Positions 3,959-44,138 of a stretch of 64,000 nucleotides of DNA are shown one piece after another. The translations under genes and the position numbers were made by a program. The notes under the pieces are model-generated. The model saw only the letters and a program-made list of their open reading frames with translations. It made no database searches and was not told the origin of the DNA. Numbering within the stretch: the stretch's first letter is position 1; every line of letters begins with the position of its first letter. Source of the stretch: a virus; the IMG/VR virus record IMGVR_UViG_3300005541_000007, positions 1 to 64,000 of that record. One strand, given 5' to 3'.

Positions 3959-4882
3959 CTATACCGTATCTTTCAAAAATTTTTCAGAATATTTTTTAGC
4001 AATATCTTCAAGACTCATACCCATCTTAATATATTTAGCTATACTAGCTGAAGAATATCCTATACGTTTATCTCTTCCCCATACACTTAAAGGTTTAGTT
4101 TCTCCAAAACCTGTTATATTATTATTTGTGTATATATTCCATGCTTGTTCTGATTTAGGTATAAATTTGCAATTATCAGGATAATAACCCAAATCATTAT
4201 CTTTCCTTTCTATGGTTAGTCCTTTCTCATATCCATTCTCTAGCGCCCAAGTGATGAAATTATTTATATCTAACCATTCTTCACAAATAGTAATTCCTTT
4301 TGCTGCATAGGCTTTACTTCTATTTGGATCGTTATAATTTGGGTTACATCTGATCTTCATCGAATTTAACTTTGTAGCAAGGTCTGGATATTGCATTCTC
4401 AAGGTTGGTGGTTTTGGTTCTTTAACCGGTACTTCTTTTCTAATACTATCATAATAATCTTCCCGTGTTAAATATATTGCATTATTAGAATCCAAAGGAA
4501 GTGTTATATCTTTTCTAGCTAGAACCTTTTCTTTTTCATATCCATTACTAAATGCCCATTCAGCAAATGTATCCCAATCCTCTAACCATTCCTTACATAC
4601 TTCATAGCTCTTCTTTTTTAAGAGTATCCATATATGATATAGAGATATATTTTCGGGTGCTGTAGAAATGTACTTATATCTATTTTCTAAAAGTCCACAA
4701 CCACAACTTTTAAACTCTCCTTTCATGAGATTGGGTTTATTCACCCATTTAACAGTTCCACAATCACATTCAACTTCTACATATTGTGAATGCGATTTAG
4801 GGTTATTGGGATTAGCATGTCTAACTTCACTCTTTCCAGTAGCTACTAGTTTACCGAATCGTTTTCCTCTGATTTTTGTCAT
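3959..4882 (-). CDS. Homing-endonuclease-like protein with CxC zinc motif
   Basis: A 307-residue protein. It begins with the KRFGKLVATGKSE box and a CxC...CxC pair (Cys39/41 and 60/62), as in phage proteins with an N-terminal zinc-binding module. It then carries two copies of W-x2-F-x2-WA-x3-GY. The second is followed by LTIERKDNDLGYYPDNCKFI and SEQAWN, the signature of the GY.P.NC.(W/F) family of phage selfish endonucleases/DNA-binding proteins, often annotated with HNH or AP2 parts. The C-terminus (SASIAKYIKMGMSLEDIAKK) looks like a helix-turn-helix or NUMOD-type repeat. It stands alone on the minus strand and probably inserts into or near other genes. Catalytic residues are not certain. 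Confidence 0.65.
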   Translation of the reverse strand: MTKIRGKRFGKLVATGKSEVRHANPNNPKSHSQYVEVECDCGTVKWVNKPNLMKGEFKSCGCGLLENRYKYISTAPENISLYHIWILLKKKSYEVCKEWLEDWDTFAEWAFSNGYEKEKVLARKDITLPLDSNNAIYLTREDYYDSIRKEVPVKEPKPPTLRMQYPDLATKLNSMKIRCNPNYNDPNRSKAYAAKGITICEEWLDINNFITWALENGYEKGLTIERKDNDLGYYPDNCKFIPKSEQAWNIYTNNNITGFGETKPLSVWGRDKRIGYSSASIAKYIKMGMSLEDIAKKYSEKFLKDTV

Positions 4883-4888
4883 GTTGAT

Positions 4889-4894
4889 AGTATA
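4889..4894 (-). promoter_or_regulatory. -10 element giving a predicted leaderless mRNA
   Basis: On the minus strand TATACT is followed by six bases and then ATG 4882, so a start site seven bases after the -10 falls on the A of the start codon. There is no Shine-Dalgarno site. The same geometry recurs before many genes in this window. Confidence 0.55.
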
Positions 4895-5035
4895 GCATAT
4901 TTACCACTCGTTTGTATATACTTAGAAGACATGTTCCTAAAATTTTTCAAACATAAAGATTAGGTAAACTAATGTTTTATACCTAGAAAAAATAACTTAA
5001 TCATCATATACTTTAAAAAATTTTCCTAAAAAATT

Positions 5036-5293
5036 TTACACCAATATTAGTCGTTTAGGCCAATCATATAAAATTGCTATAAGGTATCTCGTGAAAGAAC
5101 GAAAGATTATAATGGGCCATAGATTGCTTGATACTACGAGTTGTTTAGTTTTTACTTGTTTAATTGTTCTAGGAATATAATAAAAGAGTGTTGTAACGGT
5201 TTCTATAATAAATCCTACAGTCCAGTAAATAAGCAGTATCTTACCAAGTGGAAGTTGATAGTGAATATTTATTGGAATAGTAAAATTAAACAT
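5036..5293 (-). CDS. Membrane protein (85 aa)
   Basis: Start taken at ATG 5293 (MFNFTIPINIHYQL...), with ATG 5302 as an alternative. A hydrophobic span at about residues 18-38 (GKILLIYWTVGFIIETVTTL) is followed by a basic stretch and a second amphipathic or membrane segment near LWPIIIFRSFTRYLIAILY. Two membrane segments with a basic loop suggest a small inner-membrane protein. It overlaps the 27-aa membrane peptide upstream and may form a pair with it. Function is unknown. Confidence 0.5.
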   Translation of the reverse strand: MFNFTIPINIHYQLPLGKILLIYWTVGFIIETVTTLFYYIPRTIKQVKTKQLVVSSNLWPIIIFRSFTRYLIAILYDWPKRLILV

Positions 5294-5369
5294 CTTTATC
5301 ATCTGAATTAAACCATAGGTATATTTCTAATAGGATTAAAATTATGAATATAATTAGCCAGTAGTACAT
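5286..5369 (-). CDS. 27-residue membrane micropeptide
   Basis: ATG 5369 opens a short frame beginning MYYWLIIFIILILLEIYLWF and ending NSDDKDV, a single hydrophobic span with an acidic tail. It overlaps the start of the 5293 gene by eight bases. There is no strong ribosome-binding site, so it is only a candidate. The extreme hydrophobicity followed by a polar tail is what supports it. Confidence 0.35.
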   Translation of the reverse strand: MYYWLIIFIILILLEIYLWFNSDDKDV

Positions 5370-5386
5370 TGGAAAAGTTTACCATT

Positions 5387-5968
5387 TTATTTATGATGAT
5401 CTACCGGTTTAAAAGTTTTCTTTGAAAGAATTTCTTTAACTTGGTTATAAGATATTGGGAAATATTTAGGCGTTACAGCGTCTAATCCTACGTCCATAGA
5501 TAATGCATTAGGATCATCTGGTAGATTACCATGACTGTGCCCATACAAGCTGTAAGAAAAATAATGTTGTTTATTCCACGTTCTCATTGCATAGTGTGAA
5601 AGAGTAATTGGTTGATATTTACCATTAAGAGCATCTTTATCTAATACTTTAATTTCTAGGTAAGAAGAATGAATTGATTTAAATAATGGTTGGATTTTAG
5701 TGTCTTGAAGTTTATCATGGTTTCCTTTAATAAGGATTATTTGCCCATTAAGTTGTTTTCTAATTCTTTCCCATTCATTAAAGTTACCAAAGCAAAAATC
5801 CCCTAGATGAAATACTAGATCGGCGGGGGAGACTTTAGTATTCCAGTTCTTGATTAAGGTTTGATTCATTTCTTCAGTAGTAGCAAACCCCCGAATATTA
5901 GAACAGAATTTATGGCTAAAATGCGTGTCGCTTACTAGATATAGATTTCTATGATTTTCTATGGTCAT
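5387..5968 (-). CDS. Calcineurin-like metallophosphoesterase
   Basis: A 193-residue protein with the full metallophosphoesterase motif set: SDTHFSH (residues about 13-19), LGDF, KGNHD, an SHYA box and a final GHSHG. These residues bind two metal ions in the family and hydrolyse phosphodiesters or phosphomonoesters; phage members are of uncertain substrate. The start ATG 5968 has GGGGA upstream, and a TTGACA-17-TATACT promoter sits just before it, so this gene has a short normal leader. Size is typical of the small single-domain phage/bacterial subfamily. Confidence 0.88.
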   Translation of the reverse strand: MTIENHRNLYLVSDTHFSHKFCSNIRGFATTEEMNQTLIKNWNTKVSPADLVFHLGDFCFGNFNEWERIRKQLNGQIILIKGNHDKLQDTKIQPLFKSIHSSYLEIKVLDKDALNGKYQPITLSHYAMRTWNKQHYFSYSLYGHSHGNLPDDPNALSMDVGLDAVTPKYFPISYNQVKEILSKKTFKPVDHHK

Positions 5969-5987
5969 AAATTTCCCCTGTAGCTGT

Positions 5988-6016
5988 AGTATACCTTAGT
6001 AGTAATTTTTTGTCAA
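5988..6016 (-). promoter_or_regulatory. Sigma70-type promoter for the 5968 phosphoesterase
   Basis: Minus strand: TTGACA (6016-6011), 17-base spacer ending AAGG, TATACT (5993-5988). It reads toward ATG 5968 with a leader of about 13 nt that includes GGGGA. Confidence 0.7.
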
Positions 6017-6091: not shown

Positions 6092-7885
6092 GTGGTAAAT
6101 ATGGGTAAACTTGTAAATATGAGTTACGGCTGGATTAAACAAAAAGATGATTTTAGAGATTTTAAATATAGTGCTGAAAAGCCGGTTGATTTAACTAAGC
6201 CTGTTGATTTAACTTCTAGTATGCCACCTGTATGGGATCAAGGAGTTTATAACGATTGTGTTGCTCATGGTGTGGGTTGTGCTTTATGGGTTGCTTTAAA
6301 AGATGAAAATAAGATTTTTAACATGCCTAGCAGAATGTTTATTTATTATCAGGCAAGGAAATTGGAAAATTGTTTAAACCAGGATGCGGGTTGTGAAATT
6401 AGAGACGCTATTAAATCGGTAGTTAGTTTAGGTTGTCCCGAAGAAAAGGATTGGGATTATAGTATTGGGCATTTAGATATGGATGCTCCTACTAGTGTTT
6501 ACGCTGAAGCTAGTTTACATAAGGTATTGGTTTATAGAGCGGTAGCACAATCATTGAATGATATTGTTACTGCTTTAACTGAAGGATTTCCTGTTGTGTT
6601 TGGGTTTTTAGTTGATCCGTATTTTGAAACAAGTGAAATGGCAACTGAAGGACTTTTGAAGTATCCAGTAAACGCTTACAACACTAGATGGTGCGGAGGG
6701 CATTGTCTAGGTGGAAATACAAAAATTTCATTACTTGATGGTAGAGAATTATCTATATTAAATATTATAGATGAATTTAATGATAAAGAATTTTGGGTTT
6801 ATAGTTGTGATAATAAAGGAAATATAGTCCCTGGAAGGGCACATTCTGCACAAAAAATGGGAACTAAACAAGTATTAAAAATAACTTTAGATAATGAAGA
6901 AATTATTGAATGTACAGAAGAACATAGGTTTCTTTTGCGGGACGGTACATATGTGGAAGCAAAATTTTTAAAAGAAAACGATAGTTTAATGCCACTATAT
7001 AGAAAAAAATCTACTAGAAAACAAATGACGGGTTATGATATGTGTCTTAATAATAGAACTAATTCTTATTCTTACACACATAGAATAGTTGCTAAAGATA
7101 TTAATGGAACTTTGCATGGTTTTGTTGTACATCATAAAGATTTTAATAAACTTAATAATAATCCTAATAATTTACAACTCATGACGTCTGAGGATCATAT
7201 TAAATTACATTATACAGAAGTATGTAAATTAATAGAATATGTTAAAAGTGAAAAAGGTAGAGCAACGAGTAAGAAAAATATGGAAACCTTATGGGCTGAT
7301 CCCGTATGGGCAGAAAAAATGCTAGAACAATTAAAAATTAATACAACAAAAGGTGCAGATAAATTACGAGAAAAATACGCTAATGGGGAAGTTCAAGGAT
7401 TTTTAGCATTGGATGCAAATTTATTATTTGAAATACGAAGTAAAAATGGAAAGAAAAATTGTGTATCTATGCATACACCAGAAGTAATTGCTAAACGAAC
7501 CGAAACAACAAAAAATAAATTTATAGAAGATGAAGAGTATCGTGAAAAGAAACGAGCAATAGCTATTGCTAATATACAAAAATATAATGAAAAGAAAAAA
7601 CTAGAAAAACAATATAACCATAAGATTCAAAAAATTGAACTCGGAGATATACAAGATGTATATGATATTACTGTAGATAAACATCATAATTTTGCTTTAA
7701 CTGCGGGTGTATTTGTACATAATTGCGTAAATATTGTGGGTTATAATCCTGTGGACAGTACATTTATTTGTAGAAATAGTTGGGGAGATAAATGGGGATT
7801 AAATGGTTATTATCGGCAAAGCATTAATTATATACTAGACCCAAAAATTTCATCAGATTTTTGGGTAATTGAGTCTGTAAATTAA
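6092..7885 (+). CDS. Papain-like (C1) cysteine protease interrupted by an intein
   Basis: The host protein is a C1A-type protease. Gln50 and Cys56 lie in WDQGVYNDCVAHG, the catalytic His204 is in CGGH directly before the intein, and the catalytic Asn562 is in CRNSWGDKWG. The N-terminus (YGWIKQKDDFRDFKYS) matches pro-less papain-like proteins found in bacteria and phages. Residues 205-544 are an intein (own entry), so the mature protease would be about 257 residues. The start is uncertain: GTG 6092, ATG 6101 or ATG 6119 are in frame with no clear Shine-Dalgarno. It stands alone between two minus-strand groups. The target is unknown; virion maturation, host protein cleavage or lysis are possible. 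Confidence 0.85.
   Translation: MVNMGKLVNMSYGWIKQKDDFRDFKYSAEKPVDLTKPVDLTSSMPPVWDQGVYNDCVAHGVGCALWVALKDENKIFNMPSRMFIYYQARKLENCLNQDAGCEIRDAIKSVVSLGCPEEKDWDYSIGHLDMDAPTSVYAEASLHKVLVYRAVAQSLNDIVTALTEGFPVVFGFLVDPYFETSEMATEGLLKYPVNAYNTRWCGGHCLGGNTKISLLDGRELSILNIIDEFNDKEFWVYSCDNKGNIVPGRAHSAQKMGTKQVLKITLDNEEIIECTEEHRFLLRDGTYVEAKFLKENDSLMPLYRKKSTRKQMTGYDMCLNNRTNSYSYTHRIVAKDINGTLHGFVVHHKDFNKLNNNPNNLQLMTSEDHIKLHYTEVCKLIEYVKSEKGRATSKKNMETLWADPVWAEKMLEQLKINTTKGADKLREKYANGEVQGFLALDANLLFEIRSKNGKKNCVSMHTPEVIAKRTETTKNKFIEDEEYREKKRAIAIANIQKYNEKKKLEKQYNHKIQKIELGDIQDVYDITVDKHHNFALTAGVFVHNCVNIVGYNPVDSTFICRNSWGDKWGLNGYYRQSINYILDPKISSDFWVIESVN
6704..7723 (+). mobile_element. HNH-containing intein (340 residues)
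   Basis: The intein starts at Cys205 (CLGGNTKISLLDGRELSI, splicing block A) and has a block-B-like motif (CTEEHRFLLRDG). It ends with VYDITVDKHHNFALTAGVFV followed by His-Asn, then Cys545 as the +1 extein residue. Between the splicing blocks lies an HNH homing endonuclease (VHHKDFNKLNNNPNNLQLM...EDHIKLH) followed by a Lys-rich helical region. The insertion lies exactly after the protease's catalytic His, a conserved site typical for inteins. All residues needed for splicing (Cys1, block B His, terminal His-Asn, +1 Cys) are present, so it looks active. Confidence 0.9.
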
Positions 7886-10156: not shown

Positions 10157-10195
10157 GGGGGTAGAAGAAGTTTTTTGCGCGTCTTTGGTACTGGG

Positions 10196-10201
10196 TACAA
10201 T
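10196..10201 (+). promoter_or_regulatory. -10 element for the 10208 gene
   Basis: GGG-TACAAT is followed by six bases and then ATG 10208; no ribosome-binding site is seen. The predicted transcript starts at or within a base of the start codon. Confidence 0.55.
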
Positions 10202-10207
10202 TATATT

Positions 10208-10537
10208 ATGCCAAATATAACAAATCCAACTGCAATTGCTTTTTGTGATCAAAAAGTTCGTCCTATGGCGGACTTAATGCTTCAAGAGTATAATACAGCA
10301 AAATCTATTGTAAATTATTGGAATGCAAATAGTATGTCTTCAATTATCACAAATGATAGTTCAATAATCGAAGATTCTGCTGCAACCAATGGTGATGGTC
10401 GTCAAGTTATAACTGGAGCAATGGTAACAAATATCATTACTAGAGCAATAGAAAAGATTACCGACTACGAAGCAAGTTCAGATGCCAAACTAAATACAGT
10501 AGAACAGGTTTCGGTAAACGGTCAAGCGCGTTTCTAA
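10208..10537 (+). CDS. Phage structural-type protein (109 aa)
   Basis: Start chosen at ATG 10208 (MPNITNPTAIAFCDQKVRPM...), seven bases after a -10; the open frame extends farther upstream but without initiation signals. The protein is mostly helical, with no recognised domain. It directly abuts the beta-helix adhesin gene (10538) and opens the 10.2-18.9 kb adhesin cluster, so a virion-associated role is likely. Confidence 0.65.
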   Translation: MPNITNPTAIAFCDQKVRPMADLMLQEYNTAKSIVNYWNANSMSSIITNDSSIIEDSAATNGDGRQVITGAMVTNIITRAIEKITDYEASSDAKLNTVEQVSVNGQARF

Positions 10538-14545: not shown

Positions 14546-14564
14546 TAAGGTATTATAAATTTAA

Positions 14565-15818
14565 ATGAGCACTAGAAATATTCAAGAATCCTCATATGAT
14601 TCAACACAATTAATGGATATTGGCGCTTTTATAGCCGCTACAGATGATTATTTACTTGCTGCCGCTACTTCTTCACAATTAATTACTGGTAATATTTATA
14701 ATATTGATGGACAGTCAATTGGAACTTATTCATACACTCTTATCTGGACTGCTTCAACTAATAATGGCTATTTAACTAATCAAACAAAATTAACTACAAT
14801 TATAGCAGGAGGAACTTATGCAACAGGGTATACTGCCGCCTCAGCTACCGGCATTGATCTTCCAAATGCTGCATTAGGCAATATTTTATTTAATCTAGGC
14901 GCTAGAACTGGCTTAAATATTACAACTATTTCACCATTATTAAATAGTATCGCTACGCTTAGTCGTGTACCGGGGAATATTTCTGCCTCTGGCGGTTCTG
15001 GAGGTGGTTCAGATGTAAATATTACACAAATTGCGGGTGTTAATGTTCCCGCTAATCTAGGACTTCCAATTTCTGATGAATATTTTGCTCCTGTTACAGC
15101 TACTTGGACTAATGCAACTGTGCAAAATACTGCTCAAACTGTTAGTACAGCGGGATGCGATACAGTTGTTTTAACTGTGGTTCCTACAGGTACAGTTACT
15201 CCAGGAGTAATCACATTTGAATGTTTTGATGGTGCTACTTGGGTACCAATTAGAATTGGACGATCTTCACAATATGCTACAGAAACTACCTATGCTTTAG
15301 GTGGTGGGCAGCAAAACTGGCAAATTAATCTTGCCGGATATACACAGTATAGAACACGTCTTTCTACTGCAATTACTGGCGGCGGTTCTGTAATTGTAAC
15401 AGCAATTGTTTCTAGTGCGCCTGATGTTGGAACTGTTACAGTTGGTATTGATACTACAACTTATGGTCAAGCGGTGAAAGCTTCTTCGCTTCCTGTAACT
15501 ATCGCAAGTGACCAAACTACTTCTACTTTTACACATACCCAACCTTCTGTTACCACCGCTACTAGTTTCACTTTACTTGCTTCTAATACTAGTCGTAAAT
15601 TCTTAGAAATTCAAAATAATAGTTCTGCTAATATTCTTATAAATCTAAATAATGGTACACTTACAGGAATTGTACCCACTTCTTCAAACTTGGGATTTGT
15701 ATTGACTCCTGGTTCTGCTTGGTATAGTCCTCCCAATGTTTGCCCTACTGCTGCAATCACAGGTTATCAAACTAGTGGTAGTACGATTAATACTATTTCA
15801 GTAATAGAGGGCACATAA
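14565..15818 (+). CDS. Virion-associated beta-rich protein (417 aa)
   Basis: ATG 14565 lies eight bases after TATTAT, without a Shine-Dalgarno. The protein is Thr/Ser/Ala-rich with a Gly-Ser linker (SGGSGGGSD, about residue 143-151). The C-terminal half reads like a beta-sandwich seen in phage proteins (TFTLLASNTSRKFLEIQNNS, residues about 325-345). It ends overlapping the next start. Probable structural/adhesin role; no family named. Confidence 0.6.
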   Translation: MSTRNIQESSYDSTQLMDIGAFIAATDDYLLAAATSSQLITGNIYNIDGQSIGTYSYTLIWTASTNNGYLTNQTKLTTIIAGGTYATGYTAASATGIDLPNAALGNILFNLGARTGLNITTISPLLNSIATLSRVPGNISASGGSGGGSDVNITQIAGVNVPANLGLPISDEYFAPVTATWTNATVQNTAQTVSTAGCDTVVLTVVPTGTVTPGVITFECFDGATWVPIRIGRSSQYATETTYALGGGQQNWQINLAGYTQYRTRLSTAITGGGSVIVTAIVSSAPDVGTVTVGIDTTTYGQAVKASSLPVTIASDQTTSTFTHTQPSVTTATSFTLLASNTSRKFLEIQNNSSANILINLNNGTLTGIVPTSSNLGFVLTPGSAWYSPPNVCPTAAITGYQTSGSTINTISVIEGT

Positions 15819-16219: not shown

Positions 16220-16232
16220 TCTATAAAAATGG

Positions 16233-16238
16233 TATACT
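16233..16238 (+). promoter_or_regulatory. -10 element for the glycosidase gene
   Basis: GG-TATACT, six bases, ATG 16245. No Shine-Dalgarno. Leaderless geometry. Confidence 0.55.
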
Positions 16239-16244
16239 TTTATT

Positions 16245-17126
16245 ATGTATAATTTAGGTACAGCATTAGCTGGAGCATTAGTTAATCCTCCGTGGCCTGA
16301 AACGGTTCCTCTTCCACTAGAAATAATTAAATCAAGTGGTTGTAATTTTGTATCTTTACCAATTAATCCCGCAGGAGAAGCTACTGCTGCTTTATCTGGT
16401 CCGGTGCTTTCTACAAGTAAACTAACATTACAATCAGCAGCGCAAGAAATTGTAGCAGCAAGTTTAGGATTAGTTACCATACCACACAATGATCCTCCGG
16501 GAGCTACAGATGCTATTCGTCTTGAATATTTCTTAAATTTTTCTACGGCATTATTAAGATTTACTCAAATATGTCAAGTGTTGCCTAAAGGAACAATGAT
16601 TGAACTTTGGAATGAGGCTACTTATAGTGAGGTTCAATCGGGTACCTACAATTTAACTTGGAATTCTGTAATTACGCTTTATGAAAATGCATTGCAGTTA
16701 GTTGCAATTGCCAGACAATATGGATTACTGGTTGTAATGCCCGCACCATTAGATCAATCGCCAGAACAAACTTTATTAATGCAACAAAATAATGCTTTTC
16801 CTTGGGAGCAAATGGCGGCATTAAAAGCAGATTATTTAAGTTATCACATGTATGATATTTATGGTGGATTACCGTTTCGTACACGTTTAAAGACTTGTAC
16901 TGATACAGCAGAAGAACTGGGTATTCCATTAATAATTACAGAAACCAATTTTGGTCCTGATCCTTGGAAAATTATTCAAACAGAAAAAGAATACAAAATA
17001 CAAGGAATTGCACATTCTATTTATCAATATATAATGGACCCTCCTTCAACTTCTGATTTTAGTAACACTGTTGTTCAAATAGCAATACAGTCAGCTATAA
17101 ATAATCCTATTACTACAATAAATTAA
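16245..17126 (+). CDS. TIM-barrel glycoside hydrolase-like enzyme (293 aa)
   Basis: The protein has the clan GH-A layout: ELWNEAT with putative acid/base Glu124 at the end of strand 4, LSYHMYD (His200/Tyr202), and PLIITETNFGP with putative nucleophile Glu232 on strand 7. The length suits a bare catalytic barrel of the GH5/GH39 kind. In an adhesin cluster it likely degrades host surface polysaccharide during entry, or acts on exopolysaccharide. It has no signal peptide. ATG 16245 lies seven bases after TATACT, so the mRNA is predicted leaderless. Confidence 0.7.
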   Translation: MYNLGTALAGALVNPPWPETVPLPLEIIKSSGCNFVSLPINPAGEATAALSGPVLSTSKLTLQSAAQEIVAASLGLVTIPHNDPPGATDAIRLEYFLNFSTALLRFTQICQVLPKGTMIELWNEATYSEVQSGTYNLTWNSVITLYENALQLVAIARQYGLLVVMPAPLDQSPEQTLLMQQNNAFPWEQMAALKADYLSYHMYDIYGGLPFRTRLKTCTDTAEELGIPLIITETNFGPDPWKIIQTEKEYKIQGIAHSIYQYIMDPPSTSDFSNTVVQIAIQSAINNPITTIN

Positions 17127-17139
17127 GTATACTACATAG

Positions 17140-18876
17140 GTGCGTATTCCTTCAGCAGCACAAATAGTAATTACCGGTAATACTTCAGGAACTAATCAAT
17201 TAATTCCAGTTGAATTATTGACGATTGCCGGTGGACCCAATGTTACGCTTAATCAAAGCGGTAATTTAATATCTATTAGTGGTCCTTCTGCTGGTGGTGC
17301 TGGAATTCTTAGTGTTTATAATGTAGGACAAACTACAGGACAATCCTCTAGTTCTACAATTAATGGTACTGCTGTTTCATTAGATGGTGCTGGTGGTGTT
17401 TCTGTTGGTATGTCCGCTGGTTCTATTGTTATTTCTGGTGCTACTGGTGGCGGTGGCGGTGGAGCAATGTCTTGGTATGGTCTTGGTAATACTACTCAAA
17501 ATAGTTCCACAACCTTATCCGCAAATTCAATTTCACTTGATGGACTGGGAATTATTTCTGTTGGTTATAGTAATGGATCAATTCAAATTAGTGCTACCAC
17601 AGCACAAAGTAATCAAACTGAAGGAAATTATTTTGTAGGTAATACAACAGGGCAAAGTTCATCATCTACTATAGATGCACGTTCTGTTTCTGTTTCTGGT
17701 TTAGGCATTGTTAGTGCTGGAATGTCGGCAGGAATGATGGTTATTTCAGCTACTACAGCAGCACAATCTAATCAATCATTAGGTATTTATAATAGTTCAA
17801 ATACAACAGGGGCAACTACTTCATCAACCTATGACGCAAGAAGTTTATCATTTGTTGGTTATGGCGCAGCATCAGTAGGACAATCAAATGGATCAATACA
17901 AATATCTGTTAATGTGGGGGCACAATCAGCACAAACATTAGGTATTTACGCTAGTTCACAAACCACAGGGCAATCTTCTAGTTCTACTATAGATGCACGA
18001 TCTATGTCTATCGTAGGACAGGGAATTATAAGTGCTGGATTATCTGCTGGCGCTATTTTAATATCCGCTACTACTGCTGCACAATCTAATCAAACAGAAG
18101 GAAATTATTTCTTAGGTAATACTACAGGACAATCATCTAGTTCTACTATAGATGCTAGAAGTGTATCAGTTTCAGCACTTGGTCCTATTAGTGCAGGTAT
18201 GTCTGCTGGTGCGATGGTAATTTCTGCTCCATCTATTTACACAGCATCACAATATCATTGGCCCAATGATTTATTAGATGTAGGAAATTCCTATGCTTTT
18301 GGAAATATAGAAATAAATTATATACCTCTTCCTGTTTATGTATCTGGTACACAAGCATGTATTTATGCCTCATTATCTGCCGTAAGCACAACAGGAACAT
18401 TATCATTTAATGCATTATTTAATGCTAGTATTATGATTTATACTAGAAATGCTTCAACCTTAAGCAGTGTATCTTCTGCCAGTCAATCATTTTTAATTTC
18501 ATGGCAAAATAATTCTACATCTTCTATGGGTGGAGCAAGAGAATTTTCCTTTCCTTTAAATATTAATGCTTCTCCTGGTGACTATTGGGTTGGTATCGGA
18601 ATAAATACTTCTACTACACGAGCAGTAAATCCTATAGGTGCTAATATTTTAGTTTCTACAATAGGAGCAGGAACTATTTCTGCACAGTATAGAAATGCTT
18701 TAGCTGTTTCTGTTGGAACAGTCATTACTAGTACAAATCAAATTATACACGGTGTTGGAGAATACTCTGTTAGTACTGCTGCAATTCCTACAGCAATATC
18801 AATGACACAAATTACTGCTACAACTGCTGTAGGTTCTGCTCCGGGTAATTTCCATATTGCTCTAAAGAATTGGTAA
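17140..18876 (+). CDS. Repeat-containing tail-fibre-like protein (578 aa)
   Basis: GTG 17140 is seven bases after TATACT (17128-17133). Residues about 60-365 consist of six or more repeats of roughly 50 residues with the core NTTGQSSSSTIDARSVSVSG...G-SAG-M-ISATTAAQSNQ. The C-terminal ~210 residues (QYHWPNDLLDVGNSYAFGNI onward) form a distinct globular beta-domain. Such stalk-plus-head organisation is typical of fibres that bind cell-surface receptors. DNA-level repeats (such as caatctagttctac) make it prone to recombination. Confidence 0.7.
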   Translation: MRIPSAAQIVITGNTSGTNQLIPVELLTIAGGPNVTLNQSGNLISISGPSAGGAGILSVYNVGQTTGQSSSSTINGTAVSLDGAGGVSVGMSAGSIVISGATGGGGGGAMSWYGLGNTTQNSSTTLSANSISLDGLGIISVGYSNGSIQISATTAQSNQTEGNYFVGNTTGQSSSSTIDARSVSVSGLGIVSAGMSAGMMVISATTAAQSNQSLGIYNSSNTTGATTSSTYDARSLSFVGYGAASVGQSNGSIQISVNVGAQSAQTLGIYASSQTTGQSSSSTIDARSMSIVGQGIISAGLSAGAILISATTAAQSNQTEGNYFLGNTTGQSSSSTIDARSVSVSALGPISAGMSAGAMVISAPSIYTASQYHWPNDLLDVGNSYAFGNIEINYIPLPVYVSGTQACIYASLSAVSTTGTLSFNALFNASIMIYTRNASTLSSVSSASQSFLISWQNNSTSSMGGAREFSFPLNINASPGDYWVGIGINTSTTRAVNPIGANILVSTIGAGTISAQYRNALAVSVGTVITSTNQIIHGVGEYSVSTAAIPTAISMTQITATTAVGSAPGNFHIALKNW

Positions 18877-18879
18877 TCA

Positions 18880-18909
18880 TTGACTTTTATAGTTAGTTTA
18901 AGGTATAGT
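18880..18909 (+). promoter_or_regulatory. Promoter before the glycosyltransferase operon
   Basis: TTGACT (18880-18885), 18-base spacer ending AAGG, TATAGT (18904-18909), then seven bases to ATG 18917. Leaderless geometry with a recognisable -35. Confidence 0.7.
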
Positions 18910-18916
18910 AATTTAT

Positions 18917-21250: not shown

Positions 21251-21253
21251 GTA

Positions 21254-27720: not shown

Positions 27721-27768
27721 AAAAAGTTTTTATCTCCTGAAACCTATCTATTTGCAGGTTCAGTTAGG

Positions 27769-27774
27769 TATCAT
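27769..27774 (+). promoter_or_regulatory. -10 element for the 27782 gene
   Basis: TTAGG-TATCAT, seven bases, ATG 27782. The overlapping TATGAT on the opposite strand can serve the holin-like gene, giving a second divergent pair like that at 25204-25212. Confidence 0.5.
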
Positions 27775-27781
27775 ACAACAT

Positions 27782-29659: not shown

Positions 29660-29688
29660 TTGACTTTTCAGCCGGGGTGTGGTATAGT
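29660..29688 (+). promoter_or_regulatory. Sigma70-type promoter
   Basis: TTGACT (29660-29665), 17 bases ending GGTGTGG, TATAGT (29683-29688). The last 12 bases match the 10128-10156 promoter exactly. It reads into the 29.7-33.6 kb gene run. Confidence 0.85.
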
Positions 29689-29723
29689 GTCTCCAATGCA
29701 CTACTTCAATGGACGGGAAGCTT

Positions 29724-33630: not shown

Positions 33631-33654
33631 AATCTAAGGTATAATTAATTCGGG

Positions 33655-33660
33655 TATTAT
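33655..33660 (+). promoter_or_regulatory. -10 element for the portal gene
   Basis: CGGG-TATTAT, six bases, ATG 33667. A second TATAAT lies at 33640-33645. No Shine-Dalgarno precedes the ATG. Confidence 0.5.
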
Positions 33661-33666
33661 TGTCAC

Positions 33667-35190
33667 ATGCCTCTATCGTGGCCTAAATTTTTCCAAGGCA
33701 AAAAAATACCTGAAATTACAAAAGGTTTAGTAACCGAACTAGATATTTTAGGTGAAGGCTTCCCCTCGCAAGATCAACTTGCGATCATGCGTACAACCTT
33801 TGGCGTACCGTACAAAGGCAAGATACGTCCGCTTACTGCTGCTCAAATTTACGCACAAATGCCTGTACTCATGGCATGTGTTGATAAAATTTGTAACTAT
33901 GCTATGCAGGTTCCTCTTAATGTTTATAAACAAAGAAGTCTTGATGATGATATTTACGATGAACAACTAGTAACTAGAGGATTTCCAGCTAACACTATAA
34001 TGAATGTAAATGAGTCTATGACTCAAACAGATTTTACATCAATGATGGCATTCTATCTCTTAGTCTTTGGAAATGCTTATATAGCAATGGAACCTGCACC
34101 AGAAGAATATAAAGATATTGCAGACTTCTTCTTATATCCCATGAATCCTACGTGGTGTTCTATCGTACCAGATGAAGCAGGAGAATCCTTATATCTTTAT
34201 CAACGTGCAGGTAAACGAATCTTCTTTAAGAAAGAATATGTAATTCATATTAAAGAAAATAATCCTTATGATAACTTTCAAGGATTTATTAAGATGAATA
34301 GTCTTGACTACGATTTATCTAAAGAACGATTTGCTAAAGGTGATCTTTCTAGATATTTTGAAAGAGCTTCCAATCTTAATGGAGTAATTACTATGGATAA
34401 GAACTCCAGAGTAAATGCCGATGAAATTCGTAAATGGAAGAAACAATTAGAACAAGATTATTCCGGCCCTGCTAATGCTTATCGTACTCTATTCTTAGAA
34501 AATGAAATGAAGTATGAAAAGATAGAAACGCAAGGAGGGGCGCAAAAAGCAGCTATTGATGTTATAGCAGATTCAGCCAGCACTACGCAAATGCTCTATG
34601 GTGTTCCTGCCGCACTATTTACAGGTGATGCTAGAGATATTGAAAAGGTAGAAGAAATGTTTTGGAATTCTACTGTTAAACCATTACTTACCAGAATTCA
34701 AGCACAACTTACAAAATTTATTCAAAGAAAAGCAGGACCAAAGTGGGAATGTCGTTATAATTATGCAAATATTTCAGCATTAAAACGACAAGACTTTACT
34801 GTAATGCGTAGTGTGGTAGCAGCCATTAATACCGGGTATATGTCAGTAAATGAAAATAGAATTGCTAATGGTATGCCTCCACTTACAGGCGCATATAAAG
34901 AGTTTGGAGATATGCCTCAACCCATGTGGCAACTAAAGAATAATATTATAGGTCCGCTGTCTAAAGGTGGATTTGGAGAACCGGGTGGGGGTAATCCAGC
35001 ACAATCAGGCAAAACAGGTCCTAGCCTCACCGTAGCAGGTTCGCAAGGCGGCAGGGATCAATCCTCGCAAGGTGAAGCACAAATGGCTGATGAACATGGA
35101 AGTAAAACAATTGAAAGTATTGAAGATTATGATATGATTGAAATAATTAGTAAGATTTTACTAGAAGATAATTTGCAAGGTAAACTCTAA
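33667..35190 (+). CDS. HK97-family portal protein (507 aa)
   Basis: Recognisable portal features are RPLTAAQIYAQMPVLMACVD (N-terminal helix), the FYLLVFGNAYIAM wing strand, VIHIKENNPYDNFQGF, GVPAALF and the ARDIEKVEEMFWNSTVKPLL stem region, followed by NENRIANGMPPL. The portal forms the dodecameric DNA gate at the capsid vertex. The C-terminal ~60 residues are Gly/Ser-rich and acidic. It precedes the protease gene by two bases and starts the morphogenesis operon. Confidence 0.9.
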   Translation: MPLSWPKFFQGKKIPEITKGLVTELDILGEGFPSQDQLAIMRTTFGVPYKGKIRPLTAAQIYAQMPVLMACVDKICNYAMQVPLNVYKQRSLDDDIYDEQLVTRGFPANTIMNVNESMTQTDFTSMMAFYLLVFGNAYIAMEPAPEEYKDIADFFLYPMNPTWCSIVPDEAGESLYLYQRAGKRIFFKKEYVIHIKENNPYDNFQGFIKMNSLDYDLSKERFAKGDLSRYFERASNLNGVITMDKNSRVNADEIRKWKKQLEQDYSGPANAYRTLFLENEMKYEKIETQGGAQKAAIDVIADSASTTQMLYGVPAALFTGDARDIEKVEEMFWNSTVKPLLTRIQAQLTKFIQRKAGPKWECRYNYANISALKRQDFTVMRSVVAAINTGYMSVNENRIANGMPPLTGAYKEFGDMPQPMWQLKNNIIGPLSKGGFGEPGGGNPAQSGKTGPSLTVAGSQGGRDQSSQGEAQMADEHGSKTIESIEDYDMIEIISKILLEDNLQGKL

Positions 35191-35192
35191 TC

Positions 35193-37709
35193 ATGGAAAA
35201 TTCTATTGATGGAATTCTCTACGAATTAGCATTCAAGGGTGAAATTGTAGAAAAATCTATGAAAGGCGATAAACTTGTCTTTTCTGGATATATTAGTACA
35301 GATGAAGTAGATTTAACCGGAGATAGGTGTCCAGCAGAATCATGGAGAAAATATCTTGAGTTTTATAATCGCAATCCTATTTACTGTTATAACCACGATA
35401 GAACCATCCCAATTGGAAAATGTCGTGAAGCTACTATTGATAATAAAGGACTTTTATTTAATGATATTACATTAACTCCAATTCCTTTTGTTAAAGATGT
35501 ATTAATGCCACTTATTCTTGATGATGTATTAAAACAGCAATCTGCTGGATTTATGAATCTTAAACAATCAAAGAAAAGTGGAGTAACAATTTTAGAAGAA
35601 AATTATCTTCTAGAAGGTTCTCTTGTTCCTGTTGCAATGAATCCTAATGGAACAGATATTAAAGTAAAAGGTATTGAACTATTTACAGAAGAGGCTAAAG
35701 TATATGATCTATGGACTATGTATGATAAAGGATTAATCGAAGTTTCTTCTAAAGTTTATAGTGTTCCCGATTCAGATGTTTTTTCAGGAAGTGCAAAAAT
35801 AAGTCAAAATAATGCAGACACAATTATGCCTACAAATACGTTTACACCAATGTTTAAGGGGATTGAAGTAACTAAACATATTGATTCTTCATATGACCCG
35901 GGGGGTGTTAAGGTAGATTTTCCTAAAAATTATGCATCAACCGCTGTAGAATATACTAAGGCAGCAGAACTTACACATGCAGGTAAGCAAAAAGCTAATC
36001 GTGAAGGTGTTAAAGATAAGTATATATTCCAAATTGGGCATGTAACAGAAAAGGGGTTTGCTTATGATTGGAATATGCTTGCAACCACTACCGCTAAAGT
36101 ATTAGGTGCTAAAGGTGGAGCAATTTTTGAAGAAGGAGAACAACTAGCAGTTCTTAAACGATTAGAACAAGCATATGCAGTTCTTGAAAAGCAATTTCCA
36201 CAGTATGAGAAAACTGGAGAAACTTTATCATATATTCCTGAATGGAAACTTACCGATATTAAATATGCCGAAGTAAAATTTTTTAATGATGAAGATATTA
36301 TTGTTGCTGATACTATTGCACATGAGAATATTGATAGTCTAAATAATTATATTGAAAAGAACGGTCCCGATAGAATTAAAACAGAACTAAAATATCTTTC
36401 ACATTCTGTAAATCTTAATATTTCTGGTGGTAAACATGGAGAATATGATAGTGATGGAGAAAATGATTCTAAATTAATGACTCAAGTTCTTCACCTACTT
36501 CATGGTTATCAGCAAACAAAAGATAAAGCTAAAGAAGATTTTCATAATAAACTTTCCTCTCCTGGTGAAGTAGATTACGATGCAGCACATAAAAATATGA
36601 AAGATGCTGTAGATCATTATGTCACCAATTGTCTTTCTGTAGGCGCTGACGGTCAAGGCAACGGCAATGATATGGACCTTGATAGTTCACAACTTGACTT
36701 AGATCAAGATGAAATTATTAAGGGTAAAAGTAAGAAAGAAATGCGTGAAGCAAATCCTGATGAACCAGAACCTTTAGCTGTAGCTGCTCAAACAGAAAAC
36801 GATGAAGCATATCTTGATCCTGATAATATTATGGGTACTTTAGGAGCTAAAGAACCACAAGGAGAAAATGACCTTAATCCAGAAATTAGAAATAGAAGTC
36901 GTCAAGCAGTAGAAGCCGCTGATTCAGGACACGGAATTCCCGCTAAAACTAAGGAAGAGATTGAGGCAGCTAATAAGAAAGCACGTAAAGATCAAAGTAC
37001 AACTGTAAATGAAGTTTCCTCTGTAACTAAAGATAAATCTCCATCTAAATATAATCATATGGATGATAGAGGGGGGAAGGCAACACATTATGCAGGACCA
37101 CATAATTCATTTCCAATTGAAAATCAAAATGATGTTGATGATGCTTGGGATTTAAGAGGACATGCGGATAATCCTTCTCAGGTTGGCCGAAATGTACTTA
37201 GACTTGCTGCACACCTTGGACTCAATCCACCTAAAGGTTATCATCCCGGCGAAACTAAGAAAGCAAAATCACCGAAAGATGAAGTAGTTGTAGCTGAAGA
37301 ATCTAACGATGGTACTACATTCCCAACCTCACCACCTTCAGTCCCTTCTGATGGTGATGCAGATGGTAAGAAAAAGAAGACTAAGTTCCTCTACTATCTA
37401 TCTTGCGTAAAGTATCTCGGAAAAGATAATGATACTAGATATGGGTATGTAATCGGTACTACCGACAAAACAGCATGTCCCGTAATTCTACGTGTAGAAA
37501 AACTTAACGATCAATTTAAGTTTACAAAACACTTTGACATTACAGATGCAGAACTTACGGAAATTCCACAATTTGATGAATTAAATGCATTACAAGAATT
37601 AGAATCAATTGTAGAAAAAAGTAAATCTATCTTAAAAGCCTTTGATCCAATTCAAGTGATTACTAAAGATAACACCTTAGAATATCTCGATAGACTATTT
37701 GGTTTTTAA
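35193..37709 (+). CDS. Prohead protease fused to a long C-terminal region (838 aa)
   Basis: Residues about 25-170 are an HK97 (U35/S78-type) prohead protease, with His68 in CYNHDR and Ser117 in QQSAGF as the likely catalytic pair, and LLEGSLVPVAMNP following. Typical proteases are ~200 aa; here ~650 more residues follow. They comprise a middle domain (about 220-420), a charged low-complexity section (430-640) and a C-terminal alpha/beta part (about 735-838). The charged section suits a scaffold, so this is probably a protease-scaffold fusion that processes itself and the capsid protein. The middle domain is unidentified. Confidence 0.85.
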   Translation: MENSIDGILYELAFKGEIVEKSMKGDKLVFSGYISTDEVDLTGDRCPAESWRKYLEFYNRNPIYCYNHDRTIPIGKCREATIDNKGLLFNDITLTPIPFVKDVLMPLILDDVLKQQSAGFMNLKQSKKSGVTILEENYLLEGSLVPVAMNPNGTDIKVKGIELFTEEAKVYDLWTMYDKGLIEVSSKVYSVPDSDVFSGSAKISQNNADTIMPTNTFTPMFKGIEVTKHIDSSYDPGGVKVDFPKNYASTAVEYTKAAELTHAGKQKANREGVKDKYIFQIGHVTEKGFAYDWNMLATTTAKVLGAKGGAIFEEGEQLAVLKRLEQAYAVLEKQFPQYEKTGETLSYIPEWKLTDIKYAEVKFFNDEDIIVADTIAHENIDSLNNYIEKNGPDRIKTELKYLSHSVNLNISGGKHGEYDSDGENDSKLMTQVLHLLHGYQQTKDKAKEDFHNKLSSPGEVDYDAAHKNMKDAVDHYVTNCLSVGADGQGNGNDMDLDSSQLDLDQDEIIKGKSKKEMREANPDEPEPLAVAAQTENDEAYLDPDNIMGTLGAKEPQGENDLNPEIRNRSRQAVEAADSGHGIPAKTKEEIEAANKKARKDQSTTVNEVSSVTKDKSPSKYNHMDDRGGKATHYAGPHNSFPIENQNDVDDAWDLRGHADNPSQVGRNVLRLAAHLGLNPPKGYHPGETKKAKSPKDEVVVAEESNDGTTFPTSPPSVPSDGDADGKKKKTKFLYYLSCVKYLGKDNDTRYGYVIGTTDKTACPVILRVEKLNDQFKFTKHFDITDAELTEIPQFDELNALQELESIVEKSKSILKAFDPIQVITKDNTLEYLDRLFGF

Positions 37710-39486: not shown

Positions 39487-39507
39487 TACTTAGTTTAGAA
39501 GTTAAGA

Positions 39508-39545
39508 GGAATGCAGATAAAAATTTGCATTCCTTCTTTCTTTTA
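39508..39545 (+). terminator. Rho-independent terminator after the capsid gene
   Basis: GGAATGCA (39508-39515) pairs with TGCATTCC (39526-39533), followed by TTCTTTCTTTT. Eight perfect pairs with flanking purine/pyrimidine extension. Confidence 0.85.
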
Positions 39546-41008: not shown

Positions 41009-42097
41009 ATGATTAATTATCAACTTAAATTAAAACTTACTAAATATCAGGAACAACAATTAGAATCCTGGTTACCAATACTTACCTCTATTTGGAATTG
41101 GACTATAAGAAAAATTGAATTAGATGCTAAAGATAATATATATTATAATAGTAAATTTGATTTTGTAAATTTATTAGTAAATCATAGTGAAAAATTAGGA
41201 GTATCTAGTCATACTATGATGTGTACTACTATGACTGCATATAATTTATACCAACAATATATAAAGAAAAAATGTGGTAAACCTAAATTTAAAGGACAAA
41301 GAAATAAACTTAATAGTATTCTATTTCCAGATATTATTAAACAACCACAAAATAATAAAATACAATTACGAGTAATAGGTAAAATTAAGTATCATAAACA
41401 ACAAATACCTGAAGGTAATATTAAATGTGTAAGAATTATTAAAAAAGTAAGTGGTTGGTATGCAGTATTAACTATAGATACTAAACCTAAAAAAATATCT
41501 ATTATTAGTAATAATAAAGTAGGAATTGACCCAGGATTTAAACATTTACTTACACTATCTAATGGTGATAAAATTGAACATCCTCGTGAATTTGAAATTA
41601 ATGCGGAACGATTAGCACAAGCACAACGCGGGCATAATAAGAAACTTGCTGCTATAATTAATGAAAAAATTGCTAATCAACGAAAAAACAGAAATCACAA
41701 ACTCTCTAGAAAATTAGTAAGTGAAAATGAATTAATAGTTTTTAGTAAAGATAATCATAAAAATGTTGCTAAAAAATTTGGTAAATCTGTGTCCTCTTCA
41801 GGACATTATCAACTTCAAAAAATGTTAGAATACAAGTGTCGTACAGACGGTAGGCAATACATAGAAGTTGATTGTAAGTTTTCCACCATGACCTGCTCTA
41901 CCTGTAATGCTCGTACCGGGCCTACAGGTTGGGAAGGCTTGAAGGTAAGGAATTGGGAGTGTACAGAGTGTGGAACTTTACATGATAGAGACATAAATGC
42001 CGCTATCAATACGCTTAATTCCGGGCTTGGAATAAGCCACGAGAATACCGTGAAAACGGAAATACAGAAAACTAGTAATGAATGGGGTAATATTTAA
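41009..42097 (+). CDS. tnpB: TnpB-family RNA-guided nuclease-like protein (362 aa)
   Basis: TnpB/OrfB of IS200/IS605-type elements: RuvC-I Asp174 in VGIDPG, an arginine/lysine-rich bridge region (KIANQRKNRNHKLSRKL), a zinc ribbon CSTC...CTEC (Cys296-321) and RuvC-III Asp328 in HDRDINAA. The usual RuvC-II Glu (xxEDL) is replaced by LIVFSKDNHK (Ser246). Glu286 in YIEVD might substitute, as in TnpB clades with rearranged active sites, or the protein may be nuclease-dead. No TnpA lies nearby. The stop overlaps the next ATG by one base. The last ~100 bases are GC-richer with small hairpins, where an omegaRNA scaffold would be expected. Confidence 0.88.
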   Translation: MINYQLKLKLTKYQEQQLESWLPILTSIWNWTIRKIELDAKDNIYYNSKFDFVNLLVNHSEKLGVSSHTMMCTTMTAYNLYQQYIKKKCGKPKFKGQRNKLNSILFPDIIKQPQNNKIQLRVIGKIKYHKQQIPEGNIKCVRIIKKVSGWYAVLTIDTKPKKISIISNNKVGIDPGFKHLLTLSNGDKIEHPREFEINAERLAQAQRGHNKKLAAIINEKIANQRKNRNHKLSRKLVSENELIVFSKDNHKNVAKKFGKSVSSSGHYQLQKMLEYKCRTDGRQYIEVDCKFSTMTCSTCNARTGPTGWEGLKVRNWECTECGTLHDRDINAAINTLNSGLGISHENTVKTEIQKTSNEWGNI

Positions 42098-42528: not shown

Positions 42529-43067
42529 TGAGTGTAGCATCCCACTTATCACAAGAACTAATTTATGTAGACATAAATATACCTAAACTTACACAACAAA
42601 TTAAAGAAGTTTTAGATGAACGATCTGCTACACATCATTCTATTCAAGATTTAAAACTCAAAGTTTTAGAGGCGTTCGGTAAGGAGACAAGAAGACGTGC
42701 AAGAATTATTTTATCACAAAGTTCTAGAGGTTCAGCGTATCCTCCTGGTGGTGGAGGAACAGATACTAGATACGGCGGTATTAGACTTTATGACACTATT
42801 ACATGGAAGGTTTATCCTAATCAAAATAGGGTAAGAGTTATGGCGGGTGGAGGAATTCGCCCTGATGCTTTTATGTATAACAAACCGCGTGGAGAATTTA
42901 CTCAAATGAATAATGTAAGTTTCTTTTCATTTAAAATGAATAGACGAGTAAAATATAAACAAGTGCAACGTGAAGGAATTTATTATTTGGGCGGGGCTTT
43001 CAGGGGAGTATTGCGGGACCTCCAAAAAATTGTGGATCGTGTAGTTAGAAAGGAGATTTCAGATTAA
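42528..43067 (+). CDS. Tail completion (gp10-like) protein (179 aa)
   Basis: Helical N-terminus (QELIYVDINIPKLTQQIKEV...), an Arg-rich helix (KETRRRARIILSQSS), a Gly-rich loop (YPPGGGGTDTRYGG) and beta strands (TITWKVYPNQNRVRVMAGGG) resemble the HK97 gp10-like tail-joining family. By position it seals the head-tail junction. Assigned by layout and wording rather than a diagnostic motif. Confidence 0.6.
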   Translation: MSVASHLSQELIYVDINIPKLTQQIKEVLDERSATHHSIQDLKLKVLEAFGKETRRRARIILSQSSRGSAYPPGGGGTDTRYGGIRLYDTITWKVYPNQNRVRVMAGGGIRPDAFMYNKPRGEFTQMNNVSFFSFKMNRRVKYKQVQREGIYYLGGAFRGVLRDLQKIVDRVVRKEISD

Positions 43068-43101
43068 TATTCCCCATTTAACAAAATGTTTGGCATCTAA
43101 T

Positions 43102-43803
43102 ATGTCATTAGCATCTGCTACTAGTTTTACTGAAATAGATTCTCTGACCGTCTCATTGTGGCAGAATCGTGTACTTTATACAGCATCGCCTGTAACACAA
43201 CTTACTACAATTAATCAAGCACAATACTGTATCATAGAATTTACATCGGGTGCTTGTCAAGGCATTCGTTGTGTAATCTATAGTCATGCAGCACAACCTA
43301 CTCAATTTATTTGTGCTGATGATATGAGAGGTTCCCTACAACCGGCACCAGGAGATACTTTTAGAATTTATGGTGGTCCACTTATATCAGGGTTATGTAA
43401 TGTATTTTGGATGCAACAAGATTCATTTCAAAATATTCCAGATAATAACTTTATAATTGTAGTAAGTACAGGTGGAGGAAATATGTTTATTGATCGAATT
43501 AATGCTAATCAATTACAAGGATTAATGGCATTTAGACAACAAGCAGAAATTGAAATAATGGTTCTAGCACCATTTGTTACTGCCGATGCTTCTAGTTTTA
43601 CAAATTATAATGCTGCAATTTTAGATATTTATACATTAGTAGATCAAGTAAGAACATTTACCGCACTATTTAGAATGAGTACAGTTAATAATTTTACTGG
43701 TAAAGGGCCGATTAAATGGGATTATTTTTGGTCAGTACAGGAAGATGGTTCACTAGCAAGACAAGGATGCACAATTACATTTACCTGTGAGTCTGCGTCA
43801 TAA
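43102..43803 (+). CDS. Tail terminator-like protein (233 aa)
   Basis: The start is placed at ATG 43102 (MSLASATSFTEIDSLTVSLW...); TTG 43090 is in frame upstream, and neither has a ribosome-binding site. The C-terminus ILDIYTLVDQVRTFTALFRM and QEDGSLARQGCTITFTCESA read like the last strands of a tail-terminator/tail-component protein. The context just before the tail tube operon supports that role. Confidence 0.55.
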   Translation: MSLASATSFTEIDSLTVSLWQNRVLYTASPVTQLTTINQAQYCIIEFTSGACQGIRCVIYSHAAQPTQFICADDMRGSLQPAPGDTFRIYGGPLISGLCNVFWMQQDSFQNIPDNNFIIVVSTGGGNMFIDRINANQLQGLMAFRQQAEIEIMVLAPFVTADASSFTNYNAAILDIYTLVDQVRTFTALFRMSTVNNFTGKGPIKWDYFWSVQEDGSLARQGCTITFTCESAS

Positions 43804-43829
43804 TCTTTTTCTACAGTAAATTATTCAAG

Positions 43830-43835
43830 TATAAT
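43830..43835 (+). promoter_or_regulatory. -10 element for the 43842 gene
   Basis: AAG-TATAAT, six bases (GTATAA), ATG 43842, no Shine-Dalgarno. Leaderless geometry at the head of the tail operon. Confidence 0.6.
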
Positions 43836-43841
43836 GTATAA

Positions 43842-44138
43842 ATGCAACCAAAATGGGTGTTAGAATATGTCGCATCAGAAGGCACTATTCTTCATAAACC
43901 TTTAAGCGATGGTCAGTGTTTATTTCAAAAAGGACAACCATTTACCGTAACCAATTTTGAAGATTATAGACGACTTGTAAATACTCACCGTGGAGAATTT
44001 GTAGAAATTAGTAATAATCTAGATGAAATTATTCCTAAAGAAGAAAATGTTACAGAACCTACAGCAGAACCTATTGGTTATCCAATAACAAAACCCAAAG
44101 CAGAACCCACATTAGAATTAAATAAGGAAGATAAATAA
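43842..44138 (+). CDS. Small tail-region protein (98 aa)
   Basis: Begins MQPKWVLEYVASEGTILHKP. The N-terminal ~60 residues form a compact beta-rich domain; the remainder is a Glu/Pro-rich tail (EENVTEPTAEPIGYP...). Its stop overlaps ATG 44138 of the tail tube gene. The acidic disordered end resembles that of the 39572 protein. Function unknown. Confidence 0.6.
   Translation: MQPKWVLEYVASEGTILHKPLSDGQCLFQKGQPFTVTNFEDYRRLVNTHRGEFVEISNNLDEIIPKEENVTEPTAEPIGYPITKPKAEPTLELNKEDK

Follow-up and report, generated by a model that had tools for sequence, protein, structure and literature searches.

The phage record IMGVR_UViG_3300005541_000007 is 80,385 bases long, and its bases 1-64,000 (the window analysed here; guanine plus cytosine (GC) content 35%) carry a class of gene starts at which a -10 promoter element lies directly before the start codon. 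The best explanation, and one that we consider highly probable, is that sigma-70-type -10 elements abut the start codons, that a subset of genes would be expressed from leaderless mRNAs, and that the layout has been inherited in a lineage that includes the Microcystis phage Mvi-JY20. The leaderless geometry of this gene subset, which had been proposed in a preliminary description of the same DNA, is well supported by sequence comparison: by the spacing of the elements, by -35 boxes exactly 18 bases from the hexamer in Mvi-JY20, and by agreement between orthologues of the two phages.

At these sites the -10 hexamer of a presumed sigma-70-type promoter, mostly in the form GGTAnnnT, ends 6-8 bases before the start codon (we refer to this distance as the gap). 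The sigma-70 holoenzyme starts transcription about 7 bases past the -10 hexamer, on a purine, and so a gap of 6 would place the start on the A of ATG, while gaps of 7-8 would leave at most one or two leader bases; the first base of the mRNA is thus predicted to be the initial A or G of the start codon, or to lie 1-2 bases from it. Leaderless mRNAs are translated via ribosome binding to the 5'-terminal AUG, and translation without a Shine-Dalgarno (SD) leader would presumably proceed in the same way here. The two G residues before the hexamer may act like an extended -10, which would fit a phage with good -35 boxes at only 2 of 17 sites. Transcription would be carried out by the host sigma factor and RNA polymerase. 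About one gene in six would be expressed in this manner (15 of 87 as judged by GTAnnnT, or 17 counting those at 4882 and 25200), the remaining genes presumably using SD-like sites, short leaders or their position in operons.

Spacing of the -10 element in two phages

The 87 genes were predicted with one simple codon-model caller, any ATG or GTG no more than 40 codons from the longest start being allowed, and the 60 bases upstream were compared with 300 dinucleotide shuffles. At gaps of 6-8, GTAnnnT precedes 15 of the 87 genes (shuffled mean 2.2, maximum 7) and GGTAnnnT precedes 12 (mean 0.5, maximum 5). TATnnT is counted 17 times compared with 5.6 in shuffled sequence, with no shuffle reaching 17. 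If only the starts of the longest open reading frames (ORFs) are used, GTAnnnT is found at 11 of 87 genes (1.3 in shuffled sequence). The excess is specific to the gap: with gaps of 12-40 as background, 15 GTAnnnT sites are observed and 2.4 expected (Poisson p = 4e-8). Comparison with shuffled sequence had been suggested as a check on the spacing between -10 element and start codon, and the excess of GTAnnnT and GGTAnnnT lies beyond all 300 shuffles, rather than at the frequency expected by chance. Plain TAnnnT, found at gaps of 5-8 before 27 of 87 genes against a mean of 17.6 (one of the 300 shuffles reaches 27), is a much weaker signal and was dropped in favour of GGTAnnnT; on its own, TAnnnT is a poor descriptor in DNA of 35% GC.

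The motif was sharpened after the data were seen, a concern that the shuffles and gap controls answer in part, and Mvi-JY20 (PP438412; 107,975 bases; GC 51% over the 102,648 bases used) serves as the independent test. It is the only clear annotated relative found. Of the 87 proteins called, 17 have a match in it (tblastn, E <= 1e-3; 22-41% identity), and the order is shared for 16 of these; judged by these matches, it is a distant, largely collinear relative with homologues of head, tail and replication proteins in the same order. In Mvi-JY20, GGTAnnnT at gaps of 6-8 precedes 21 of 117 genes (0.6 in shuffled sequence; p = 6e-19 relative to other gaps), making the layout stronger than in the window's phage despite the higher GC content. 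Across the 140 annotated plus-strand coding sequences of Mvi-JY20, GTAnnnT occurs at gap 6 in 12 and at gap 7 in 5, and no more than three times at any other gap from 0 to 44. A box with at least five of six matches to TTGACA lies exactly 18 bases from the hexamer at 12 of its 22 sites, and the mean best -35 score over the 22 is 4.2 compared with 2.9 in shuffled sequence. The exact full pattern, TTGAC-N17..19-GGTANNNT-N6..7-ATG (spacers of 18-20 bases, those of 17 not being covered), has 13 matches in the complete Mvi-JY20 sequence, where the reversed control has none, and one in the window's phage; it is absent from phiYS40, Ma-LMM01, Mic1, N1, P23-45 and two other IMG/VR records.

Fifteen reciprocal best pairs link the two phages, and the layout is present in both members of two pairs, in neither member of 13, and discordant in none (Fisher 0.0095). 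The two pairs are the portal and the head protease, the latter with a gap of 7 in Mvi-JY20. Two closer IMG/VR fragments, L019 (capsid 78% identical) and L020 (capsid 54% and portal 48% identical), extend the comparison: the L020 orthologue of the gene at 43842 has GTACACT at gap 6 before a GTG start, and the protease start of L019 lies off its contig. Each of the two phages has an extended block of genes for tail and replication proteins that is devoid of sites (0 of 37 genes compared with 15 of 50 elsewhere, and 0 of 20 compared with 22 of 97 in Mvi-JY20), with the limits of the block having been chosen after the sites were seen.

The two start classes also differ in their SD content. An SD-like motif precedes none of the 15 leaderless sites and 28 of 72 other genes (Fisher 0.0015), and in Mvi-JY20 it precedes one of 22 sites and 25 of 95 other genes (Fisher 0.019), a contrast that is partly forced in that the -10 box occupies part of the SD position. 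With that qualification, the earlier proposal of two translation regimes is supported as two classes of start site. Of the three SD leaders named as counterexamples, those of the capsid gene at 37804 (AGGA) and the gene at 22117 (GGAG) are present, and the tape-measure gene at 48168 has only a weak AGAAG.

Promoter elements, controls and alternative explanations

Several observations weigh against this interpretation. A -35 box with at least five of six matches accompanies only 2 of the 17 sites in the window, the mean -35 score over the 15 GTAnnnT sites is 3.4 compared with 3.1 in shuffled sequence, and of nine promoters in the record that combine a good -35 box with GG, only two have a gap of 5-9. 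Most of the leaderless sites in this phage would therefore depend on the -10 element alone, and about 2 of the 15 are expected by chance. The portal of L020 has only GTAAACT at gap 9 upstream and its protease has no site, showing that single sites come and go; L019 and L020 together give 2 compared with 0.7, which is not significant. The Thermus phage P23-45 (first 50 kb) was negative in the gap test, leaving two of three Thermus controls positive, namely phiYS40 (first 50 kb; 24 TAnnnT at gaps of 6-8, 7.2 expected) and plasmid pTT27 (50 kb; 8 compared with 1.4), each with its peak at gap 6. The idea that all -10 boxes of the window carry a -35 box is ruled out by the count of 2 in 17. Given the nine good -35 promoters, only two of which have such a gap, this phage may have two promoter classes.

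Searches for a Sigma70 r2 domain in this record, which is possibly incomplete, and for a Sigma70 r4 domain in this phage and Mvi-JY20 detected none, though a divergent factor would be missed by either, and host RNA polymerase is therefore the likeliest user of the promoters. Four strong promoters of the form TTGAC(A/T)-N17-TANNNT have TGTGG before the -10, at 10133(-), 29683(+), 59255(+) and L001:9911(+) (record position 72911); for three of them, no ORF of 50 codons begins within 70 bases, and these three may drive small RNAs.

The explanation that best survives beside ours concerns the host: the phage may mirror a leaderless-proficient host outside the cyanobacteria, with the recorded host of Mvi-JY20 being wrong or a bystander. 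We regard this as a serious contender, although we do not quite favour it. In the Mvi-JY20 record the host is entered as Microcystis viridis, of a bloom-forming cyanobacterial genus, and leaderless mRNAs do work in cyanobacteria, where, according to the portions of the reports available, CvkR of Anabaena is a tested case, 51 are described in Synechocystis (PMC9938897) and 19 in S. elongatus UTEX 2973 (PMC6091082); on these sources the phenomenon is known but rare. On the other hand, the layout was not found in sampled cyanobacterial DNA (1.2 Mb in all), where GGTAnnnT counts were 1 compared with 3.1 expected in Planktothrix (400 kb), 1 compared with 1.4 in Picosynechococcus (200 kb), 1 compared with 3.2 in G260 (400 kb), a genome called Microcystis-like from one transposase only, and 0 compared with 0.7 in G571 (200 kb). 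The gap test was likewise negative for three other cyanophages (Ma-LMM01, Mic1 and Nostoc N1) and lambda (first 50 kb of each), for Formimonas (200 kb), and for the huge phage LR756511 (42 kb; 2 compared with 1.4). The full pattern was found in 107 of 291 cyanobacterial genomes with at most four matches per genome, the reversed control giving up to five, compared with 13 in the 108 kb of Mvi-JY20. The suggestion that the host is proficient in leaderless initiation is thus not supported: in the recorded host phylum of Mvi-JY20, the layout is not apparent in the 1.2 Mb sampled or, judged by the full pattern, in the 291 genomes. A 92-kb sample of G006, named as Armatimonadetes, is weakly positive (GTAnnnT 4 compared with 1.2, p = 0.04).

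Searches for a capsid relative (A7 profile) returned none in eight genomes, 386 cyanobacterial genomes, or 249 genomes of the phylum of G008 (Bacillota by name). Within the cyanobacterial phylum, the three small genomes G149, G161 and G253 carry identical or near-identical full promoters of the leaderless type, with a similar one in G147, which suggests one conserved leaderless gene.

The converse possibility is a lineage that does infect cyanobacteria with a leaderless class of GG-extended -10 promoters hardly used by its hosts, a subset of genes including portal and protease being put on a separate translation route, which might be at an advantage if initiation factors or ribosomes are changed during infection. 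We consider this rather unlikely.

Less likely again is that the promoters are real, and that initiation takes place a few bases further upstream or read-through operon mRNA dominates, leaving truly leaderless mRNA as a minor species. Gaps of 7-8 permit leaders of one or two bases, and many sites lie inside co-directional arrays; both phages, however, peak at gaps of 6 and 7, and the two positive Thermus controls at gap 6, which argues for starts on the codon itself and makes this alternative improbable.

It is very improbable that the motif is not a promoter at all, but a translation signal in the mRNA, acting as an unusual ribosome-binding element. Its fixed distance to the start codon would suit such an element, as would the location of several sites in tight co-directional arrays, for example that of 17140, 13 bases past the previous gene. 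However, a ribosome-binding element would not readily account for a TTGACA-like box exactly 18 bases from the hexamer in Mvi-JY20. The same promoter is also found before a tRNA gene, at 2882, and before leadered genes, and the full-pattern matches in Mvi-JY20, with none in the reversed control, likewise favour a promoter. Finally, chance, with matching starts having been picked from DNA of 35% GC in which TAnnnT is common, can draw on the modest excess of the plain motif but is hardly credible when GTAnnnT and GGTAnnnT exceed all 300 shuffles both here and in a relative of 51% GC and the excess is gap-specific, which speaks for the set even if single sites may still be chance matches.

Start sites and neighbouring features in the window

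All sites found in this phage are within the left 44 kb. Fifteen starts had been listed in the preliminary description, and TAnnnT is present 5-8 bases before every one of them. The two bases before the hexamer are GG at ten, AG at three, GC at one and GA at one, in agreement with the frequent GG described, and none has GGAG, GAGG or AGGA at -16 to -4, as the claimed lack of SD sites predicts. The statement that most gaps are of six bases is only just true: the gap is 6 at eight (4882, 10208, 16245, 17140, 25217, 29045, 33667 and 43842), 7 at three, 8 at three and 5 at one, and at five of the fifteen another TAnnnT overlaps the first, its gap being 4 or 5. The 15 GTAnnnT sites of the statistics consist of 13 of these plus two that were absent from the list, at the protease start 35193 and at 6119; those of 4882 and 25200 lack the G.

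Two starts have a full promoter. At 18880-18919(+), TTGACT is followed by an 18-base spacer ending in GG, TATAGT, gap 7 and ATG 18917, and at 26136-26176(-), TTGACA by an 18-base spacer ending in GG, TATAAT, gap 8 and ATG 26138. Two promoters with 17-base spacers ending in GG provide a contrast, with TTGACA, TATACT and a 19-base leader before ATG 5968 at 5966-6016(-), and TTGACT, TATAGT and a 20-base leader before ATG 29709 at 29660-29711(+).

Among the genes with candidate leaderless starts are the portal (33653-33669(+), GGTATTAT, gap 6, ATG 33667) and the head protease (35179-35195(+), GGTAAACT, gap 6, ATG 35193). Further candidate leaderless starts with gap 6 are at 4880-4896(-) (TATACT preceded by GC, ATG 4882), 16231-16247(+) (GGTATACT, ATG 16245), 17126-17142(+) (AGTATACT, GTG 17140), 29043-29059(-) (AGTATAAT, ATG 29045) and 43828-43844(+) (AGTATAAT, ATG 43842). 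A gap of 7 is found at 22655-22672(+) (GGTATATT, GTG 22670), and a gap of 8 at 14549-14567(+) and 21238-21256(+) (both GGTATTAT, with ATG 14565 and ATG 21254). The site at 6104-6121(+) (GGTAAACT, gap 7, ATG 6119) lies inside the ORF starting at 6092; this gene (6092-7885(+)) encodes a papain-family protease split by an intein with an HNH endonuclease.

The layout also helps to set start codons. The starts at 10194-10210(+) (GGTACAAT, gap 6, ATG 10208), 27767-27784(+) (GGTATCAT, gap 7, ATG 27782) and ATG 25217 all lie inside the longest ORF, the first by 34 codons and the second by 10; the starts at 9267 and 9509 of Mvi-JY20 are also inside the longest ORF, and the deposited annotation already uses both. 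ATG 25217(+) (TATCAT, gap 6) belongs to a divergent pair at 25198-25219 with ATG 25200(-) (TATGAT, gap 5), their start codons being 16 bases apart and their overlapping hexamers in GTATCATATC nearly palindromic. A single symmetric promoter would then yield leaderless mRNAs of both genes.

This is a virus of bacteria, and genes in the window include the portal (33667), head protease (35193), major capsid protein (37804), TnpB (41009) and a DEAD-box helicase (59335); beyond it are a second DEAD-box helicase (L001:2268), a UDG-PolA polymerase and a RecA-like protein. The TnpB-like gene (41009-42097(+)) is set amid head and tail genes, and its best plasmid hits are about 31% identical and scattered; no match was found at E <= 1e-40 in 244 cyanobacterial genomes or 199 of the phylum of G008, nor any relative in an earlier scan of genome contigs. 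A hairpin with a T-rich tail, identified by eye, is located 3' of the capsid gene at 39487-39545, at about 4014-4100 in L019 and about 9059-9165 in L020. It is followed in L020 by GGTACAAT at gap 7 from an ATG, in L019 by GGTACACT with a short leader, and in this phage by no -10. At the left end of the record, bases 1-124 match right-end stretches 80255-80378 (94%) and 80167-80288 (90%), which overlap with an offset of 88 bases and may reflect an assembly break in a tandem repeat; the AT-rich left end also holds an inverted repeat of 53 bases, 92% alike (1107-1159 and 1649-1701). Searches of the window found no Rfam family at gathering scores and no tRNA.

Scans of viral contigs with the portal alone and with polA returned no relatives. 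The capsid scan found L019, L020 and two distant loci (a repeat scan, L019 and L020 only), and a portal scan found 36 loci, all of which except L020 are distant (18-26% identity). A helicase profile found nine loci with a helicase, five of them also with a RecA-like gene and one with a metallophosphatase match, and a second helicase profile found two. In 50 pooled loci (L010-L024 and L235-L269; 549 kb, including L019, L020 and duplicates), there is no clear GGTAnnnT peak, with counts of 2, 11 and 4 at gaps of 6, 7 and 8 compared with 0-17 at other gaps. Single starts with TTGACA, a 17-base spacer and GGTATAAT at gap 7 from ATG do occur in phages with distant portals, at L240 1106(+) and at about 2928(-) in L258 and L261, and so promoters of this form also exist outside the lineage.

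Comparison with known systems

The cI gene of lambda has a leaderless mRNA. As in that case and in Anabaena CvkR, the start codon would be at the 5' end of the transcript at the sites described here, where 5' ends are predicted; unlike the phage sites, cI and CvkR are single genes and not a genome-wide class. Leaderless transcripts of phiYS40 were reportedly described by Sevostyanova et al. in 2007. In layout, which alone was compared, the first 50 kb of phiYS40 share with this phage a TAnnnT peak at gap 6, but GGTAnnnT is not clearly enriched (2 compared with 0.8), the complete 152-kb sequence contains no match to the full promoter, and the host is different.

In bacterial chromosomes, the TA-led genes of Zheng et al. 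(2011) carry TANNNT some 10-12 bases ahead of the start codon, lack an SD, and are more frequent than in dinucleotide shuffles (PMC3160421). This phage shares with them a TAnnnT near the start, the lack of an SD, and an excess beyond shuffles; in the available portion of that paper, the genes are mostly those of Actinobacteria and Deinococcus-Thermus, and cyanobacteria are not among the groups listed. According to Zhong et al. (2025), nearly a third of Deinococcus radiodurans genes have TANNNT at a distance of about 6-7 bases from the ORF, beside a class with ribosome-binding sites (PMC12340547); this is a cell and not a phage, and the corresponding excerpt describes no GG signature or fixed -35. 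The layout in the phage is the one described in these two reports, and the mechanism is already known from Deinococcus-Thermus. A passing remark that phage transcripts "are often leaderless" (PMC5312081) counts against novelty of kind. Leaderless transcripts are said to escape inhibition by kasugamycin (PMC5230787).

Literature searches found no work on leaderless cyanophage genes, as judged by title or the start of the abstract, no paper on Mvi-JY20, and none combining Microcystis phage, promoter and Shine-Dalgarno, or leaderless, Candidate Phyla Radiation and promoter. The apparent novelty lies in the lineage itself, in a sharp GG signature combined with an 18-base spacer, in the layout shared by the portal and protease genes of both phages, and in the discrepancy from the recorded host group. 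If the interpretation is true, either phage and recorded host differ in the translation starts that they use, or the host has been recorded wrongly. If transcripts do start on these codons, the lineage would be another clear case, beside phiYS40, of phages with a genome-wide leaderless class, and its promoter signature is sharper than that of phiYS40, consisting in Mvi-JY20 of TTGACW, 18 bases ending in GG, TAnnnT, 6-7 bases and ATG.

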